A stretch of DNA of 37,727 nt from a virus, in the IMG/VR virus record IMGVR_UViG_3300044617_002125, positions 1-37,727 of that record, one strand, 5' to 3'. Below the pieces are notes generated by a model that made no database searches, was not told the DNA's origin, and saw only the letters and a program-made list of their open reading frames with translations. Below are positions 1 to 34,806 of the stretch, piece after piece. The translations under genes were made by a program, and so were the position numbers. How positions within the stretch are numbered: position 1 is the first letter of the stretch; the number at the start of each line of letters is the position of its first letter.

Positions 1-1582
1 CGGTGGTGGTCAGTATAACACCGCGTCCGGTTTTTCCGCCACAGTCGGTGGTGGCTCGTTTAACACCGCGTCCAATATTTTCGCCACAGTCGGTGGTGGT
101 TCGACCAACACCGCATCCAGTGATTTCGCCACAGTCGGTGGTGGCGTGAGTAACACCGCGTCCAGTGAATACGCCACAGTCGGTGGTGGTCAGTATAACA
201 CCGCGTCCGGTCCTGTCGCCACAGTCGGTGGTGGTGAGGCTAACACCGTGTCCGGTCCTTACGCCACAGTCGGTGGTGGCTGGACTAACACCGCGTCCAA
301 TGAATTCGCCACAGTCGGTGGTGGTCACACTAACACCGCGTCCGGTCAATACGCCACAGTCGGTGGTGGTTTCACTAACACCGCGTCCGGTGCTGTCGCC
401 ACAGTCGCTGGTGGTCGGCAAAACTCCGCGTCTAATCAATACGCCACAGTCGGTGGTGGTCGGACTAACACCGCGTCCAATGAATACGCCACAGTCGGTG
501 GTGGCTGGGCTAACACTGCTATTGGTGGATACTCCACAGTCGCTGGTGGTATAATTAACACCGCGTCCGGTTCTTTCACCACAGTCGGTGGTGGTCAGGC
601 TAACACCGCGTCCAGTAGTTTCGCCGCAGTTGGTGGTGGCGTGGGTAACACCGCGTCCGGTCCTTACACCACAGTCGGTGGTGGTCAATTCAACGATGCT
701 ATTGGTGGATACGCCACAGTCGCTGGTGGTTCAACCAACACCGCGTCCAGTGAATACGCCACAGTCGCTGGTGGTCGGCAAAACTCCGCGTCCAGTGATT
801 ACACCACAGTCGCTGGTGGTCGGAATAACACCGCGTCTAATCAATACGCCACAGTCGGTGGCGGTAATTTTAACAAAGCGTCCAATAGTAACGCCACAGT
901 CGGTGGTGGCGGGGCTAACACCGCGTCCGGTCCTTATGCCACAGTCGGTGGCGGACTGTCTAACTTCGCATCCGTTAGTTACGCCACAGTCGGTGGTGGT
1001 TATTTAAACACCGCGTCCGGTGAATTCGCCACAGTCGGTGGTGGCGTGACTAACACTGCTATTGGTGGATACGCCACAGTCGCTGGTGGCTGGGCTAACA
1101 CCGCGTCCAATCAATTCGCCACTGTAGTTGGTGGGCGTTACGCCATAGCCGACCGATATGGTATGCAAGCCTACGCAGCCGGAAGATTTGTAAACAATGG
1201 TGATGCTCAAATATCAACATTTGTATTGCGTAACGCTACATCAAATAATACTGCAACTACATTATTACTTGATGGTAACTCTCAACGTTTAACTATATCA
1301 GATAATGAAATACTTGCATTTACTGCAACAATTTGTGGTACGCGTGAAGGATTGGCAGATCAGTCAATGTTTGTTAGACGCGGTATTATTAAAAGAGTTG
1401 GTGGAACAACAAGTATAGTTGGATCTGTACAAACAATCGGAACAGATATAACAGCCGCTGGGACAAGTGTATCACTAACAGCGGACACATTAAATAACGC
1501 ACTCCAAATAGATGTTGTTGGGGTCGCTGGTGAAAACTGGCGCTGGGTTGCGCGAGTCGAGGCGGTTGAAATAGCATATTAA
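1..1582 (+). CDS. Repeat-rich phage fibre/adhesin protein, 5'-partial
   Basis: The frame is open from base 2, so the gene begins before the window; 526 residues are visible. About 375 residues are 25 tandem 15-residue units (consensus TVGGG-x-x-NTAS-x-x-x-A), similar to the YadA/Hia-type head repeats in trimeric adhesins and phage fibres, and expected to form a trimeric beta-solenoid shaft. The last ~145 residues (starting near YAIADRYGMQ, with GRFVNNGDAQ, then a TTLLLDG strand region, ending NWRWVARVEAVEIAY) resemble the C-terminal domain recurrent in aquatic phage fibres. The repeats are GC-rich with near-identical DNA, while the C-terminal 450 bp is AT-rich like the rest of the window, so the shaft probably grew by recent duplication. 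Internal GTG codons such as the one at 146 are valines, not starts. Attachment protein is the likely role; which virion part carries it is unknown. Confidence 0.85.
   Translation, partial: GGGQYNTASGFSATVGGGSFNTASNIFATVGGGSTNTASSDFATVGGGVSNTASSEYATVGGGQYNTASGPVATVGGGEANTVSGPYATVGGGWTNTASNEFATVGGGHTNTASGQYATVGGGFTNTASGAVATVAGGRQNSASNQYATVGGGRTNTASNEYATVGGGWANTAIGGYSTVAGGIINTASGSFTTVGGGQANTASSSFAAVGGGVGNTASGPYTTVGGGQFNDAIGGYATVAGGSTNTASSEYATVAGGRQNSASSDYTTVAGGRNNTASNQYATVGGGNFNKASNSNATVGGGGANTASGPYATVGGGLSNFASVSYATVGGGYLNTASGEFATVGGGVTNTAIGGYATVAGGWANTASNQFATVVGGRYAIADRYGMQAYAAGRFVNNGDAQISTFVLRNATSNNTATTLLLDGNSQRLTISDNEILAFTATICGTREGLADQSMFVRRGIIKRVGGTTSIVGSVQTIGTDITAAGTSVSLTADTLNNALQIDVVGVAGENWRWVARVEAVEIAY
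2..1126 (+). repeat. 25 tandem 45-bp coding repeats of the fibre shaft
   Basis: Twenty-five in-frame 45-bp units run from the window edge to 1126, followed by a degenerate 26th. Each carries a nearly fixed 17-base core (GCCACAGTCGGTGGTGG) and variable positions that change residues 6-7 and 13-14 of the unit. Two subtypes are visible: GGG units and AGG units (GCTGGTGGT, for example 403, 538 and 718). A composite block (NTAIGGY followed by AGG) recurs three times, as expected from unequal recombination. Confidence 0.95.
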
Positions 1583-2144: not shown

Positions 2145-2720
2145 TTAAATTATTTGAACTCTTTTAAAAATATATCCTTTGTGGGACTTTCTTTGCCCGC
2201 GCAAACAATCGTATACTTTAGAAGATGAAAGCCCAAAATTTTCCAATGCAGTCATTCCTTTTAGGGTTTGTATCAATTTGCCGTCTTTATAAATTTCAAT
2301 AGCTCCTTTATAGCCATGATTATTTTCACCGGTTTTGAATTCAGATTCATCAAGCAAGTTGTTGTTTTTTGCATGTAGATAATTTTCGTAAGCACTAGTC
2401 CATTCCAAATTGCGAATCCTGTTGTCGGATTTTATACCATTTTTATGGTTTACTACCTTTTTTCCATATGGATTTGGAATATATTGAATAGCTACCAGTC
2501 TATGAATTGTTTTGTGCATTCCTTTTATTTTTCCGTTTATATTGCCATATAAAAAAACAGCAAAATACTCGCGCCCTTTGTGCCCGTACAAGCTAATAGT
2601 TTTATTTTTTTGAGTTATCTTGTTCCTGACTTCAGCGTAAGGAACTGTATCTGTAGTCCTGATCTCGTAGCGGCCCTCGTAACCTATAATATCCGACCAC
2701 TCCTTGGCGCTATTGTTCAT
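2145..2720 (-). CDS. NUMOD4/HNH homing-type endonuclease
   Basis: 191 residues with three recognisable parts. A NUMOD4 motif (EWSDIIGYEGRYEI, residues 7-20) is followed by an HNH nuclease core: H73 in IHRLVA, the N91-H92 pair in NHKNG, N100 and the NLEW-x5-N tail (104-113). A C-terminal NUMOD1-like DNA-binding segment (IEIYKDGKLIQTLKGM onward, about 141-186) completes it. This is the architecture of free-standing phage homing endonucleases. It lies next to an intron-bearing tRNA cluster but outside the intron, so any link with intron mobility is inference. A promoter overlaps the tRNA-Arg 3' end just upstream. Catalytic residues appear complete. Confidence 0.92.
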   Translation of the reverse strand: MNNSAKEWSDIIGYEGRYEIRTTDTVPYAEVRNKITQKNKTISLYGHKGREYFAVFLYGNINGKIKGMHKTIHRLVAIQYIPNPYGKKVVNHKNGIKSDNRIRNLEWTSAYENYLHAKNNNLLDESEFKTGENNHGYKGAIEIYKDGKLIQTLKGMTALENFGLSSSKVYDCLRGQRKSHKGYIFKRVQII

Positions 2721-2844: not shown

Positions 2845-3140
2845 TGGTGGCCCCGGAGGGATTCGAACCCCCAACCAATCGGTTATGCTTACCACTATAG
2901 CTTTCGCTACCTTTTAAGTTTGTAGTCTGGACTTTATCTTCGCCATTGCTTTTGCTTTAGGCGCGCTCCGTTAAGTCTCTACACCTTCCTCTTCCGAGGC
3001 TTGGCTCGGTGTTGCCAGTTCAAAGGGTTCACCGAATTTGAAGCGTTCCAATTATGAATTTCTTCATAACCGACCCATGAGAAGATTATTCATCTCCTTT
3101 CTATTTAAGCCGACTGCTCTAACCATTGAGCTACAAGGCC
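2845..3140 (-). tRNA. tRNA (anticodon CAT, probably Ile2) split by a group I intron
   Basis: The 5' exon (3108-3140, 33 nt) supplies the acceptor GGCCTTG, the D arm and anticodon stem GTCGG plus loop bases C32-T33. The 3' exon (2845-2887, 43 nt) begins CATAA and gives stem CCGAT, T arm, acceptor CGGGGCC, A73 and encoded CCA. Joined, they form a 76-nt tRNA with loop CTCATAA, anticodon CAT and all stems closed (G-U pairs tolerated). The GGCC/GGCC acceptor ends and D arm resemble lysidine-type tRNA-Ile2 more than initiator tRNA, which would show a C1-A72 mismatch and G-rich anticodon stem. Elongator Met remains possible. If it is Ile2, it reads AUA after TilS modification by the host. Confidence 0.9.
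2888..3107 (-). ncRNA. Group I self-splicing intron in the tRNA anticodon loop
   Basis: 220 nt between T33 and C34 of the tRNA, ending in the required G. The intron contains an ATG-GGTCGG guide (about 3070-3078): GGTCGG pairs with the 5' exon end CGGCT, placing a G opposite the splice-site T (P1), and ATG pairs with the 3' exon start CAT (P10). A P2-like hairpin TTATGAA-GAAA-TTCATAA follows. The conserved core reads ACTGGCAACACC, GAGCCAAGCC, GGTGTAGAGACT and AAGATAAAGTCC (P7 pairing AGACT with AGTCC), then a GTAGC-GAAA-GCTA hairpin (P9). This closely resembles the IC3 introns of bacterial tRNA genes. No reading frame of note lies inside. Confidence 0.9.
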
Positions 3141-3153
3141 CTGTTTCTGAAAT

Positions 3154-3247
3154 TGGTGCAAGGTGCAGGAATCGAACCTGCGCTCGGTCCACATCTAGGA
3201 CACACGAGGTATAAGCTCGTCGGTACTTCCAGTTATACGAACCTTGC
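3154..3247 (-). tRNA. Class II tRNA with anticodon TAT (unusual)
   Basis: 94 nt with a perfect acceptor stem (GCAAGGT/ACCTTGC), A73 and encoded CCA. The anticodon stem ACGAG/CTCGT encloses CTTATAC, giving anticodon TAT (AUA, Ile). The variable region is 22 nt with a GTCC/GGAC stem, a class II feature of Leu, Ser or Tyr tRNAs and not of Ile. Two nucleotides instead of one separate the D stem from the anticodon stem. The amino acid carried is therefore uncertain. The T arm GCAGG-TTCGATT-CCTGC is normal, so this looks like a working tRNA and not a pseudogene. Confidence 0.8.
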
Positions 3248-3290
3248 ATATATTGTTTATAGTATATTTTTAAGTTTTGTAAAGATTTTT

Positions 3291-3381
3291 TGGTAGTCGA
3301 GGCCGGATTCGAACCGGCAGTGTTTACCGCTTGGGTATAAGCTCTTAAGGCTCATGTGTTTCGCCAATTTCACCACTCGAC
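3291..3381 (-). tRNA. tRNA-Leu (anticodon TAA), CCA encoded
   Basis: 91-nt class II tRNA. The acceptor GGTCGAG/CTCGACT pairs with a G1-T72 wobble, followed by A73 and CCA. Anticodon stem TGAGC/GCTTA closes the loop CTTAAGA, anticodon TAA, for the UUA codon. The variable arm has a TACC/GGTA stem; the T arm is GCCGG-TTCGAAT-CCGGC. It is first in the tRNA cluster, directly behind the promoter. Confidence 0.93.
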
Positions 3382-3436
3382 CATATTTTCAAATATCTAT
3401 TCCAGTTTGTATAGGACTGGAAACCTTATGCTGCTT

Positions 3437-32394: not shown

Positions 32395-33458
32395 TAAACC
32401 TCCAAACCATTAATATATTGTTTGCCACTCCAAACTCCGTTTCCGTCTTTACATAAAGTGGTTGGTTCATTATTTACATAATATTTATTATACTGCCAAC
32501 CTTCAATTCTTCCGTTTTTGTATTCAAAACCATGCTGAATACCATTAAAATTTTCTCCAAAAAATCCAAATGTAAAATTTTTTGCAAGAAAACGACATTT
32601 TTTGTTTTTGCGAATACCCGTGGATACCAAAGAATTAAACACAACAAGGCGGTTGTCTCTTAAATCTACACCACGAACACATTCCGTTTCGAAAGAATTT
32701 TCTTTATTTTTTGTATTTATAAACAAAATGTTGGCATCAATTAAATCCCAATAATTGCTCTTTATGTTTTTCTTGTATCCAAGATATAAATTTCCGTTGT
32801 TAAGCAAAACATAAATTTTATCATCTACGCAAATAGCTTGTTTTATCGAGTCTTTTTCAAAATAACCGGTGAATAAATCGGAAGTTATTGAAGTGTTTGT
32901 TTTAAAACAATTCTGTAAATAATAATCCACAAAAACCTCAATGCCATTGTTATTAAAAAATAAATTTTTATAAATTTTGTGTTTCGGTGTTAAATTTTCC
33001 TTTTTCAATAAAAATTGATTTGCCGAAACTTCGTAAATTTCTGTTTTGTTTTCTTTAAAATAAAATTCATAATAATTATTATCAAAACCAGAAATAATTT
33101 TAGACGGAAGACGAGAGATGTTTATTTCTGAACTATTTTCTTTTTGGTCCGATAGAGCTTTGTATTCTTGTTCATTCAAACAAATGAAATAATAAGGATT
33201 ATTTTCAATTAAAACTGCATTTTTAATACTTTTGAGTTGGTTATTATATCGAAATTGAAAGTTTTTTTTATTAAACATTATTATCGGAATATTAACACTC
33301 TCTAAAGTTGGTGTGTTTTCTTGAAAAAGAATTCCTACGTTGTTTTTGTTTTCAACAACTTCTTTAATATCGATTGCTCTGAGAGGGTGGGGAAATATTT
33401 CTTTTAAAACGCCAGTTCTATCTTTAAAAATATTGTTTAATAACGGAACATTATCCAT
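32394..33458 (-). CDS. Hypothetical protein next to the LRR gene
   Basis: 354 residues from ATG 33458; a TTG start at 33485 is possible but would add overlap. Not recognised. Strand-rich, with many Asn/Lys/Tyr, and repeated polar turns (FYFKENKTEIYEVSANQFLL, IYVLLNNGNLYLGYKKNIKS). A C-terminal half with FGFFGENFNGIQHGFEYKNG and GWQYNKYYVNNE looks like a virion or secreted binding protein. It overlaps the LRR stop by 8 bp, so a joint role on the virion surface is my best guess. Confidence 0.65.
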   Translation of the reverse strand: MDNVPLLNNIFKDRTGVLKEIFPHPLRAIDIKEVVENKNNVGILFQENTPTLESVNIPIIMFNKKNFQFRYNNQLKSIKNAVLIENNPYYFICLNEQEYKALSDQKENSSEINISRLPSKIISGFDNNYYEFYFKENKTEIYEVSANQFLLKKENLTPKHKIYKNLFFNNNGIEVFVDYYLQNCFKTNTSITSDLFTGYFEKDSIKQAICVDDKIYVLLNNGNLYLGYKKNIKSNYWDLIDANILFINTKNKENSFETECVRGVDLRDNRLVVFNSLVSTGIRKNKKCRFLAKNFTFGFFGENFNGIQHGFEYKNGRIEGWQYNKYYVNNEPTTLCKDGNGVWSGKQYINGLEV

Positions 33459-34806
33459 TGTCAATAATGTTTTCGGGTTCTCCAAAGTTCATTAGACCAA
33501 CTCCCCCGCTTCCTGAACCGCTACTATTGCTAATTTCGGCATTGAAATCTCCTACCCACTCCAAATCTTTAATAACTGTAACATTGTTATTTCCTTGGAA
33601 TGTTAATGCCGTTCCTTCCTCCCAAGTCGTGTCAATTACTCTGGCATGAATGGTTAAAGGAGATGCTGTATTTAGGAATACATTACCACCATTAAAACGC
33701 GTTTGGGTAACATAACAATCTACAGAAGATAGATTAGGATTATCACGGAATGCACTACCTCCAATACTAGTCACAGAATTTGGTATGGTGACAGAAGTGA
33801 GTTGATTACTACGGAATGCATAACTTCCAATACTAGTCACAGAATTTGGTATGGTGACAGAAGTGAGTTGATTATTACGGAATACCCCATTTCCAATACT
33901 AGTCACAGAATTAGGAATGGTGACAGAAGTGAGTTGGTTAGAACTGAATGCATAACCTCCAATACTAGTCACAGAATTAGGAATGGTGATTGAAGTGAGT
34001 TGGTTATTACGGAATGCTTGGATTTCAATAGAAGTCACAGAATTAGGAATAGTAACTGAAGTGAGCTGGTTATTACGGAATACATAACTTCCAATACTAG
34101 TCACAGAATTTGGTATGGTGACAGAAGTGAGTTGGTTATTACGGAATGCGCTTTGTTGAATAATAGTCACAGAATTAGGAATGGTGACAGAAGTGAGTTG
34201 ATTATTATCGAATGCACTACCTCCAATACTAGTCACAGAATTTGGTATGGTGACAGAAGTGAGTTGATTACTACGGAATGCACCAGATCCAATACTAGTC
34301 ACAGAATTAGGAATGGTGACAGAAGTGAGTTGATTATTACTGAATGCATAACTTCCGATATTAGTCACAGAATTAGGAATGGCGACAGAAGTGAGTTGGT
34401 TATATAGGAATGCATAACTTCCAATATTAGTCACAGAATTTGGTATGGTGACAGAAGTGAGTTGATTATTACGGAATGCCTCATTTCCAATACTAGTCAC
34501 AGAATTAGGAATGGTGACAGAAGTGAGTTGGTTAAAACTGAATGCATAACTTCCGATAGAAGTGGCCGAAGTTCCAATATCTACATAACCAGCAATATTA
34601 AAGTATCTTTTCCAAGTTTGTGGAACATTTCCATTTAATGGATTTCCTGCGGTAACATAAATAGTTCCATCGGGATTATAGATTGTGGTATCCAGAGGAC
34701 TAACAAATCCTCCACCACCATTTTCTCCACCCCCACCAGAAGCGGAGAAAAGAGTTTTGCCTTCTAGTTTTATATTTGTGTTAGGTGCGATTTTTACGAG
34801 TGCCAT
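33451..34806 (-). CDS. BspA-type leucine-rich-repeat surface protein
   Basis: 451 residues. N-terminal ~87 residues include a glycine-rich linker (ASGGGGENGGGGF) and PLDTTIYNPDGTIYVTAGNP. Residues 89-352 are 12 repeats of 22 residues (consensus QLTSVTIPNSVTSIG-x-x-AF-x-x-N), the BspA-like LRR_5 type used by bacterial and protozoan adhesins. The C-terminal ~98 residues (VDCYVTQTRFNGGNVFLNTA onward) end in a serine/glycine linker and a short acidic tail. Unlike secreted bacterial BspA proteins it has no signal peptide, so it may be a fibre-tip or tail protein that binds host glycans. It heads an operon with glycosyl- and sulfotransferases. Confidence 0.85.
   Translation of the reverse strand: MALVKIAPNTNIKLEGKTLFSASGGGGENGGGGFVSPLDTTIYNPDGTIYVTAGNPLNGNVPQTWKRYFNIAGYVDIGTSATSIGSYAFSFNQLTSVTIPNSVTSIGNEAFRNNQLTSVTIPNSVTNIGSYAFLYNQLTSVAIPNSVTNIGSYAFSNNQLTSVTIPNSVTSIGSGAFRSNQLTSVTIPNSVTSIGGSAFDNNQLTSVTIPNSVTIIQQSAFRNNQLTSVTIPNSVTSIGSYVFRNNQLTSVTIPNSVTSIEIQAFRNNQLTSITIPNSVTSIGGYAFSSNQLTSVTIPNSVTSIGNGVFRNNQLTSVTIPNSVTSIGSYAFRSNQLTSVTIPNSVTSIGGSAFRDNPNLSSVDCYVTQTRFNGGNVFLNTASPLTIHARVIDTTWEEGTALTFQGNNNVTVIKDLEWVGDFNAEISNSSGSGSGGVGLMNFGEPENIIDNG
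33751..34542 (-). repeat. Twelve tandem 66-bp coding LRR repeats
   Basis: Near-identical 66-bp units with a fixed core (for example GTGACAGAAGTGAGTTG on the plus strand) and variable codons concentrated at the F-x-x-N and I-G-x-x-A positions. High DNA identity between units means recombination could change the number and order of repeats. Confidence 0.92.

Follow-up and report, generated by a model that had tools for sequence, protein, structure and literature searches.

A small group I intron splits a phage tRNA(CAU) gene in the anticodon loop and has relatives in other phage tRNA genes

Can the anticodon loop of a phage tRNA gene house a self-splicing intron and, if so, how did the intron get there? 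The question is raised by a locus in a 37,727-nt stretch of viral DNA (IMG/VR record IMGVR_UViG_3300044617_002125, positions 1 to 37,727), which was analyzed as a whole and is referred to here as the window. A sequence-only reading had proposed, at 2845 to 3140, a phage tRNA(CAT) in two exons around 220 nt, split by a group I intron with conserved core motifs (including P7 and P9) and with both splice sites readable. The contig is phage-like on the basis of PHROGs (two RNA ligases, a DNA repair exonuclease, a thymidylate synthase, and an HNH endonuclease). The window also encodes a long protein of repeated ATVGGGxxNTAS-like units (146 to 1582, plus strand; possibly a fiber or adhesin, with no PHROG match) and a BspA-type leucine-rich repeat protein (33451 to 34806, minus strand; LRR_5, 1.1e-88).

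Encoded on the minus strand (3140 to 2845), the gene specifies a complete 76-nt tRNA(CAU) with an encoded CCA. It consists of a 33-nt 5' exon (3108 to 3140; acceptor 5' strand, D arm, anticodon 5' stem, C32, and U33), a 220-nt intron (2888 to 3107) that ends in the conserved terminal G at 2888, and a 43-nt 3' exon (2845 to 2887; anticodon CAU, anticodon 3' stem, variable loop, T arm, acceptor strand, and CCA), with the junction at U33|C34. The intron was delimited by a match to the group I model RF00028, by covariation, and by the solved splice ends. ARAGORN detected no tRNA in the unspliced gene and found a 76-nt cloverleaf with anticodon CAT in the joined exons. Thus, the proposed coordinates were exact, as was the proposal that T33 joined to C34 closes a 76-nt tRNA; the strand, left unstated in the sequence-only reading, is the minus strand.

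The split gene was absent from the default ARAGORN output, which listed only the three neighboring tRNAs, all intronless and on the minus strand: tRNA-Arg(UCU) (2751 to 2827; RF00005, 72.6 bits), a UAU-anticodon tRNA with a long variable arm (3154 to 3247), and tRNA-Leu(UAA) (3291 to 3382), the latter two also found in the Rfam scan. A long variable arm is unusual for isoleucine. Together, the CAU and UAU tRNAs would give the phage two AUA-reading tRNAs. When introns were allowed, ARAGORN reported the same gene with a junction three bases off and called it Leu(taa); this junction was rejected because the intron would then lack its terminal G.

Both splice sites could be read as proposed. The internal guide GGTCGGTT (3068 to 3075, minus strand) forms P1 with the exon sequence AGUCGGCU, placing a G opposite U33, and the adjoining ATG (3076 to 3078, minus strand) pairs with the CAU of the 3' exon to form P10. 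P1 has eight contiguous pairs, or six to eight given that the last two guide bases can pair in P2 instead, and P1 and P10 together make 11 contiguous pairs. Runs of at least 10 arose in 39 of 20,000 dinucleotide shuffles (~0.2%) of the first 66 intron bases. Our splice-site solver requires a U before the intron and a G at its end by design; the guide pairing is independent of these requirements. The gene therefore has the features of group I splice sites, i.e., a U that ends the 5' exon opposite the guide G, a G that ends the intron, and P10.

The sequence-only reading had named a covariance search with RF00028 as a check. In a local Rfam scan, this model matched 3091 to 2907 with 54.9 bits (E = 1.8e-13; same score on repeat), exceeding the gathering score of 50 bits by just 4.9 bits. 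A scan of the whole window at gathering level did not list the intron, most likely because of the faster filters of that scan. A mascRNA match at 2849 to 2902 was below the cutoff and was discarded; it covers the end of the intron and the 3' half of the tRNA.

Core helices, all on the minus strand, were placed by sequence and by covariation in an alignment of 15 related tRNA introns. P2 (3052 to 3069; TTATGAA-GAAA-TTCATAA) is a hairpin with a GNRA loop, and its counterpart in a related intron from another contig (L055; TCATGAA-GTAA-TTCATGA) carries a compensatory T-A to C-G change. P3 joins CGCTTC (3040 to 3045) to GGAGCG (2964 to 2969); it is 100% paired in the 15 introns, and all six pairs have changed on both sides. 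P7 joins GACTT (2973 to 2977) to AAGTC (2930 to 2934), which is 3' of J8/7 AAGATA (2935 to 2940); it is also 100% paired, with two-sided changes in one pair. The P8 hairpin (CGCC...GGCG; 2941 to 2963) has two-sided changes in all four pairs, and P9 (2891 to 2926) contains two inner hairpins, one of which is closed by a GAAA loop.

The P3-P9 structure was drawn by hand from the 15 sequences. Across the alignment, 96.2% of cells were paired. This percentage is biased upward, as the alignment was consulted during the drawing; with the partners displaced by one to three columns, pairing fell to 26 to 44%. Two-sided changes, which do not depend on the hand-drawn structure in the same way, occurred in 27 of the 42 core pairs. 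The covariation score was 0.514, versus 0.174 in shuffles, and none of the 500 shuffles scored as high. The conserved motifs noticed in the letters, including P7 and P9, are thus part of a P3-P9 core supported by covariation. Rfam has one group I model; the GNRA loops on P2 and P9, the lack of a P5abc extension, and the proximity of the intron to other introns of tRNA genes are consistent with subgroup IC3. No endonuclease gene was found inside the intron, whose 220 nt are taken up by the core helices; the sole listed open reading frame that overlaps it (3064 to 3249) covers only its first 44 nt. Every computational test supports a group I intron between U33 and C34 of the phage tRNA(CAU).

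The anticodon CAU raises the question of which amino acid the tRNA carries. Uninterrupted homologs were found in 928 phage records with at least 80% query coverage (best, 87.0% over the full length), and many of those with a CAU anticodon are annotated as tRNA-Met, which is the customary annotation for CAU tRNAs. Such a tRNA with an unmodified C34 reads AUG, and the intron would then delay a methionine tRNA. We consider this reading unlikely, given that the best Escherichia coli match of the spliced tRNA is an annotated tRNA-Ile (81.6% over all 76 nt) and that AUA codons abound in the phage (39% of the Ile codons of the window); together with AGA (52% of Arg codons) and UUA (30% of Leu codons), this usage fits the tRNA set of the phage. 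Group I introns have been reported in tRNA-Ile2 and tRNA-fMet alike (PMC8450103). With a CAU cloverleaf by ARAGORN and a body closest to tRNA-Ile in the E. coli comparison, the tRNA is taken as the minor tRNA-Ile2(CAU) reading AUA; lysidine at C34 is a modification not visible in DNA. Decay of the intron, which would leave the tRNA a pseudogene, appears very improbable. The UAU tRNA at 3154 to 3247, as a second AUA-reading tRNA, could make such a loss tolerable; against decay, all core helices are intact and covary, the guide matches its own exons, the terminal G is kept, and the exons give a full cloverleaf. We are highly confident that a small group I intron, which lacks an endonuclease open reading frame and is predicted to self-splice, resides in the anticodon loop of an AUA-reading phage tRNA-Ile(CAU).

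In the proposed splicing pathway, the guide of the folded precursor would pair with the 5' strand of the anticodon stem (P1), with U33 opposite G. Guanosine would attack after U33 as the first step, and the freed U33 would then attack after the terminal G, with the 3' exon held by P10 (ATG with CAU). The joined 76-nt tRNA, with its encoded CCA, would proceed to processing and charging. Because the unspliced form lacks an anticodon loop, the tRNA would be silent until the intron is excised and would depend on self-splicing during infection. We infer this dependence and the catalysis, timing, isoleucine charging, and cost or benefit of the intron from the DNA. The intron is most readily viewed as a tolerated guest, with the anticodon loops of phage tRNAs as a favored niche.

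The sequence-only reading had described such introns as unusual in phage tRNAs. This agrees with the literature, in which the phage introns known in 2014 all interrupted protein genes, although phage tRNA genes are numerous (Hausner and colleagues; PMC3984707), but not with our scans. A pattern with a T loop downstream of the P7 motif retrieved 95 stretches from IMG/VR, and the solver, which required a full cloverleaf, a U before the intron, and a G at the intron end, found split tRNA genes in 74 of these, versus 0 of 95 controls in which the upstream part was reversed. Some of the contigs may be bacterial. The 74 genes contained 55 distinct introns in 12 anticodon/position classes, the majority being Leu(UAA) at 34|35, and several introns reached the RF00028 gathering level. 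A first pattern (P7 plus GCATAA) had given mostly noise, with three tRNA genes among 97 stretches.

Several named phage records also contain split tRNA genes: the huge phage LR756501 (735 kb; tRNA-Leu), LR756508 (tRNA-Lys and tRNA-Arg), a Microcoleus phage (tRNA-Arg, annotated as a single 286-nt tRNA), and the cultured jumbo phage Atu_ph07 (L231, ~1745 to 2106; tRNA-Leu(UAA) with an intron of 278 nt and no tRNA annotation). Three contigs (L143, L169, and L181) carry tRNA-Trp-like genes that have the anticodon UCA (opal suppressor) and are split at 34|35 by a group I intron. ROOL RNA (L190, 10098 to 10673) and HEARO RNA (L230, 2632 to 2856) were observed in phage contigs that also have split tRNAs. 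In prokaryotes, a similar pattern limited to CAU was applied to 84,980 genomes. It yielded 36 stretches, 32 of which were solved as split tRNAs, from Comamonadaceae and other Betaproteobacteria (tRNA-Ile), Omnitrophota (tRNA-fMet), and a few others.

Among known systems, the Azoarcus tRNA-Ile(CAU) IC3 intron is likewise small and has GNRA loops capping P2 and P9; it is inserted after position 36, with the anticodon CAU as the last three bases of the 5' exon, and not at U33|C34 as in the window. The bacterial tRNA-Ile2(CAU) introns of the Rhodoferax, Polaromonas, and Accumulibacter loci share the tRNA class and the junction U33|C34 and are similar in size (244 to 252 nt) and guide (ATG.GGTT). 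They differ in being chromosomal rather than phage borne, have ~69 to 70% identity over ~130 nt of the core, and are not sisters of the window intron. Acidovorax and Burkholderia have also been named as carriers of tRNA-Ile2 group I introns (PMC8450103). The phage tRNA-Leu(UAA) introns (LR756501, many IMG/VR contigs, and Atu_ph07) have the closest core and the same size class, but they interrupt another tRNA one base further on (U34|A35). The same catalytic core family includes phage protein-gene introns (T4 td and SPO1 DNA polymerase, with matches in the HTVC120P capsid and a crAss-like polymerase), which often encode endonucleases, whereas the window intron splits a tRNA and has no open reading frame of its own. 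In the Pelagibacter phage HTVC120P (L228, 1501 to 1649), a stretch between two annotated capsid-gene pieces is 76% identical to the intron core over 150 nt and is likely a capsid gene intron; it was not listed in an Rfam scan at an E value of 0.01.

The nearest intron by sequence was that of the LR756501 tRNA-Leu(UAA) (81% over 184 nt), and the two were sisters with a support of 97/97 (84 in the first tree). Their guides differ (ATG.GGTCGGTT in the window versus TTT.GAGT in LR756501). The L055 contig has the same tRNA (66 of 76 positions identical) split at the same site, with a related intron and P1-P2 region and ~500 nt inserted upstream of the guide. The P1 loop of the L055 intron contains, upstream of the guide, an open frame on the antisense strand whose cysteine and histidine motifs are HNH-like. 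The window and L055 introns as sisters did not form the best tree, yet this placement was not rejected (p-AU, 0.247); a single clade of all CAU introns was rejected (p-AU, 0.01).

In another contig (L092, 5401 to 7226, minus strand), neighboring tRNA-Leu(UAA), CAU, and Arg(UCU) genes are split at 34|35, 33|34, and 36|37, respectively. The three introns share near-identical P3-P6 stretches (64 to 92 nt, 88 to 92% identity), and the Leu and CAU introns are sisters (support, 99/98). The Arg copy has the P7 GAGCA/TGCTC in place of the usual GACT/AGTC. The window/LR756501 pair and L092 suggest movement of introns between tRNA genes with re-coding of the guide; for L092, gene conversion among neighboring introns is a possible alternative. 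We tentatively propose, as an account that could well be wrong, that phage tRNA anticodon loops are a main home of a lineage of small group I introns that moves between tRNA genes, even within one phage, with the core kept and only P1/P10 re-coded. The window/LR756501 pair (CAU at 33|34 versus Leu at 34|35) and L092 (Leu at 34|35, CAU at 33|34, and Arg at 36|37) would be two such switches.

Alternatively, the phage might have acquired the tRNA-Ile(CAU) gene, intron included, from a bacterial host; in Comamonadaceae and Accumulibacter, tRNA-Ile(CAU) genes are interrupted by an intron at this very position. This origin seems improbable in view of the strongly supported sister in the tRNA-Leu(UAA) of a huge phage and the rejection of one clade of CAU introns. 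Another route would be mobility in trans, in which a free-standing HNH endonuclease that adjoins the tRNA block (2145 to 2720, minus strand; Pfam HNH_3, 1.4e-9; I-HmuI_NUMOD-like, 1.4e-8) cuts intronless tRNA(CAU) so that the intron is copied in. The enzyme has an I-HmuI-like domain, and I-HmuI is the enzyme of a phage group I intron. However, the closest contig that our searches retrieved, a 134-kb relative (L236) whose exonuclease is 75% identical to that of the window, carries a 52% identical HNH homolog beside the same tRNA block and has no RF00028 match on its 134 kb; thus, the HNH gene does not track the intron. Free-standing endonucleases also occur near phage tRNA genes without any intron, e.g., T4 SegB. 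The endonuclease is probably not the intron's own enzyme, and we regard its action in trans as unlikely. At the matching place, L236 has Leu, CAU, and Arg tRNAs, the CAU tRNA being intronless; it was considered as an empty allele and dropped because the body of this tRNA is quite different.

Our literature search, with subscription journals and preprints mostly outside its coverage, returned no description of group I introns in phage tRNA genes, including after 2014. The word "intron" is absent from the papers on Atu_ph07 (PMC6102473), huge phages (PMC7162821), virus tRNAs (a survey; PMC6409571), and phage anticodon loops (PMC10264068). This gap is likely one of detection because the ARAGORN default omits such a gene and tRNAscan-SE 2.0 was, according to its authors, not designed for detecting group I introns in tRNA genes (PMC8450103). 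Phage tRNA inventories, suppressor tRNAs included, are therefore probably undercounted. More interesting than a single intron is the phage-wide set, apparently an overlooked population of phage tRNA introns with signs of guide re-coding. The L092 contig and the cultured phage Atu_ph07 open to tests the re-targeting of tRNA introns and the limits that splicing may set on tRNA supply in infection.
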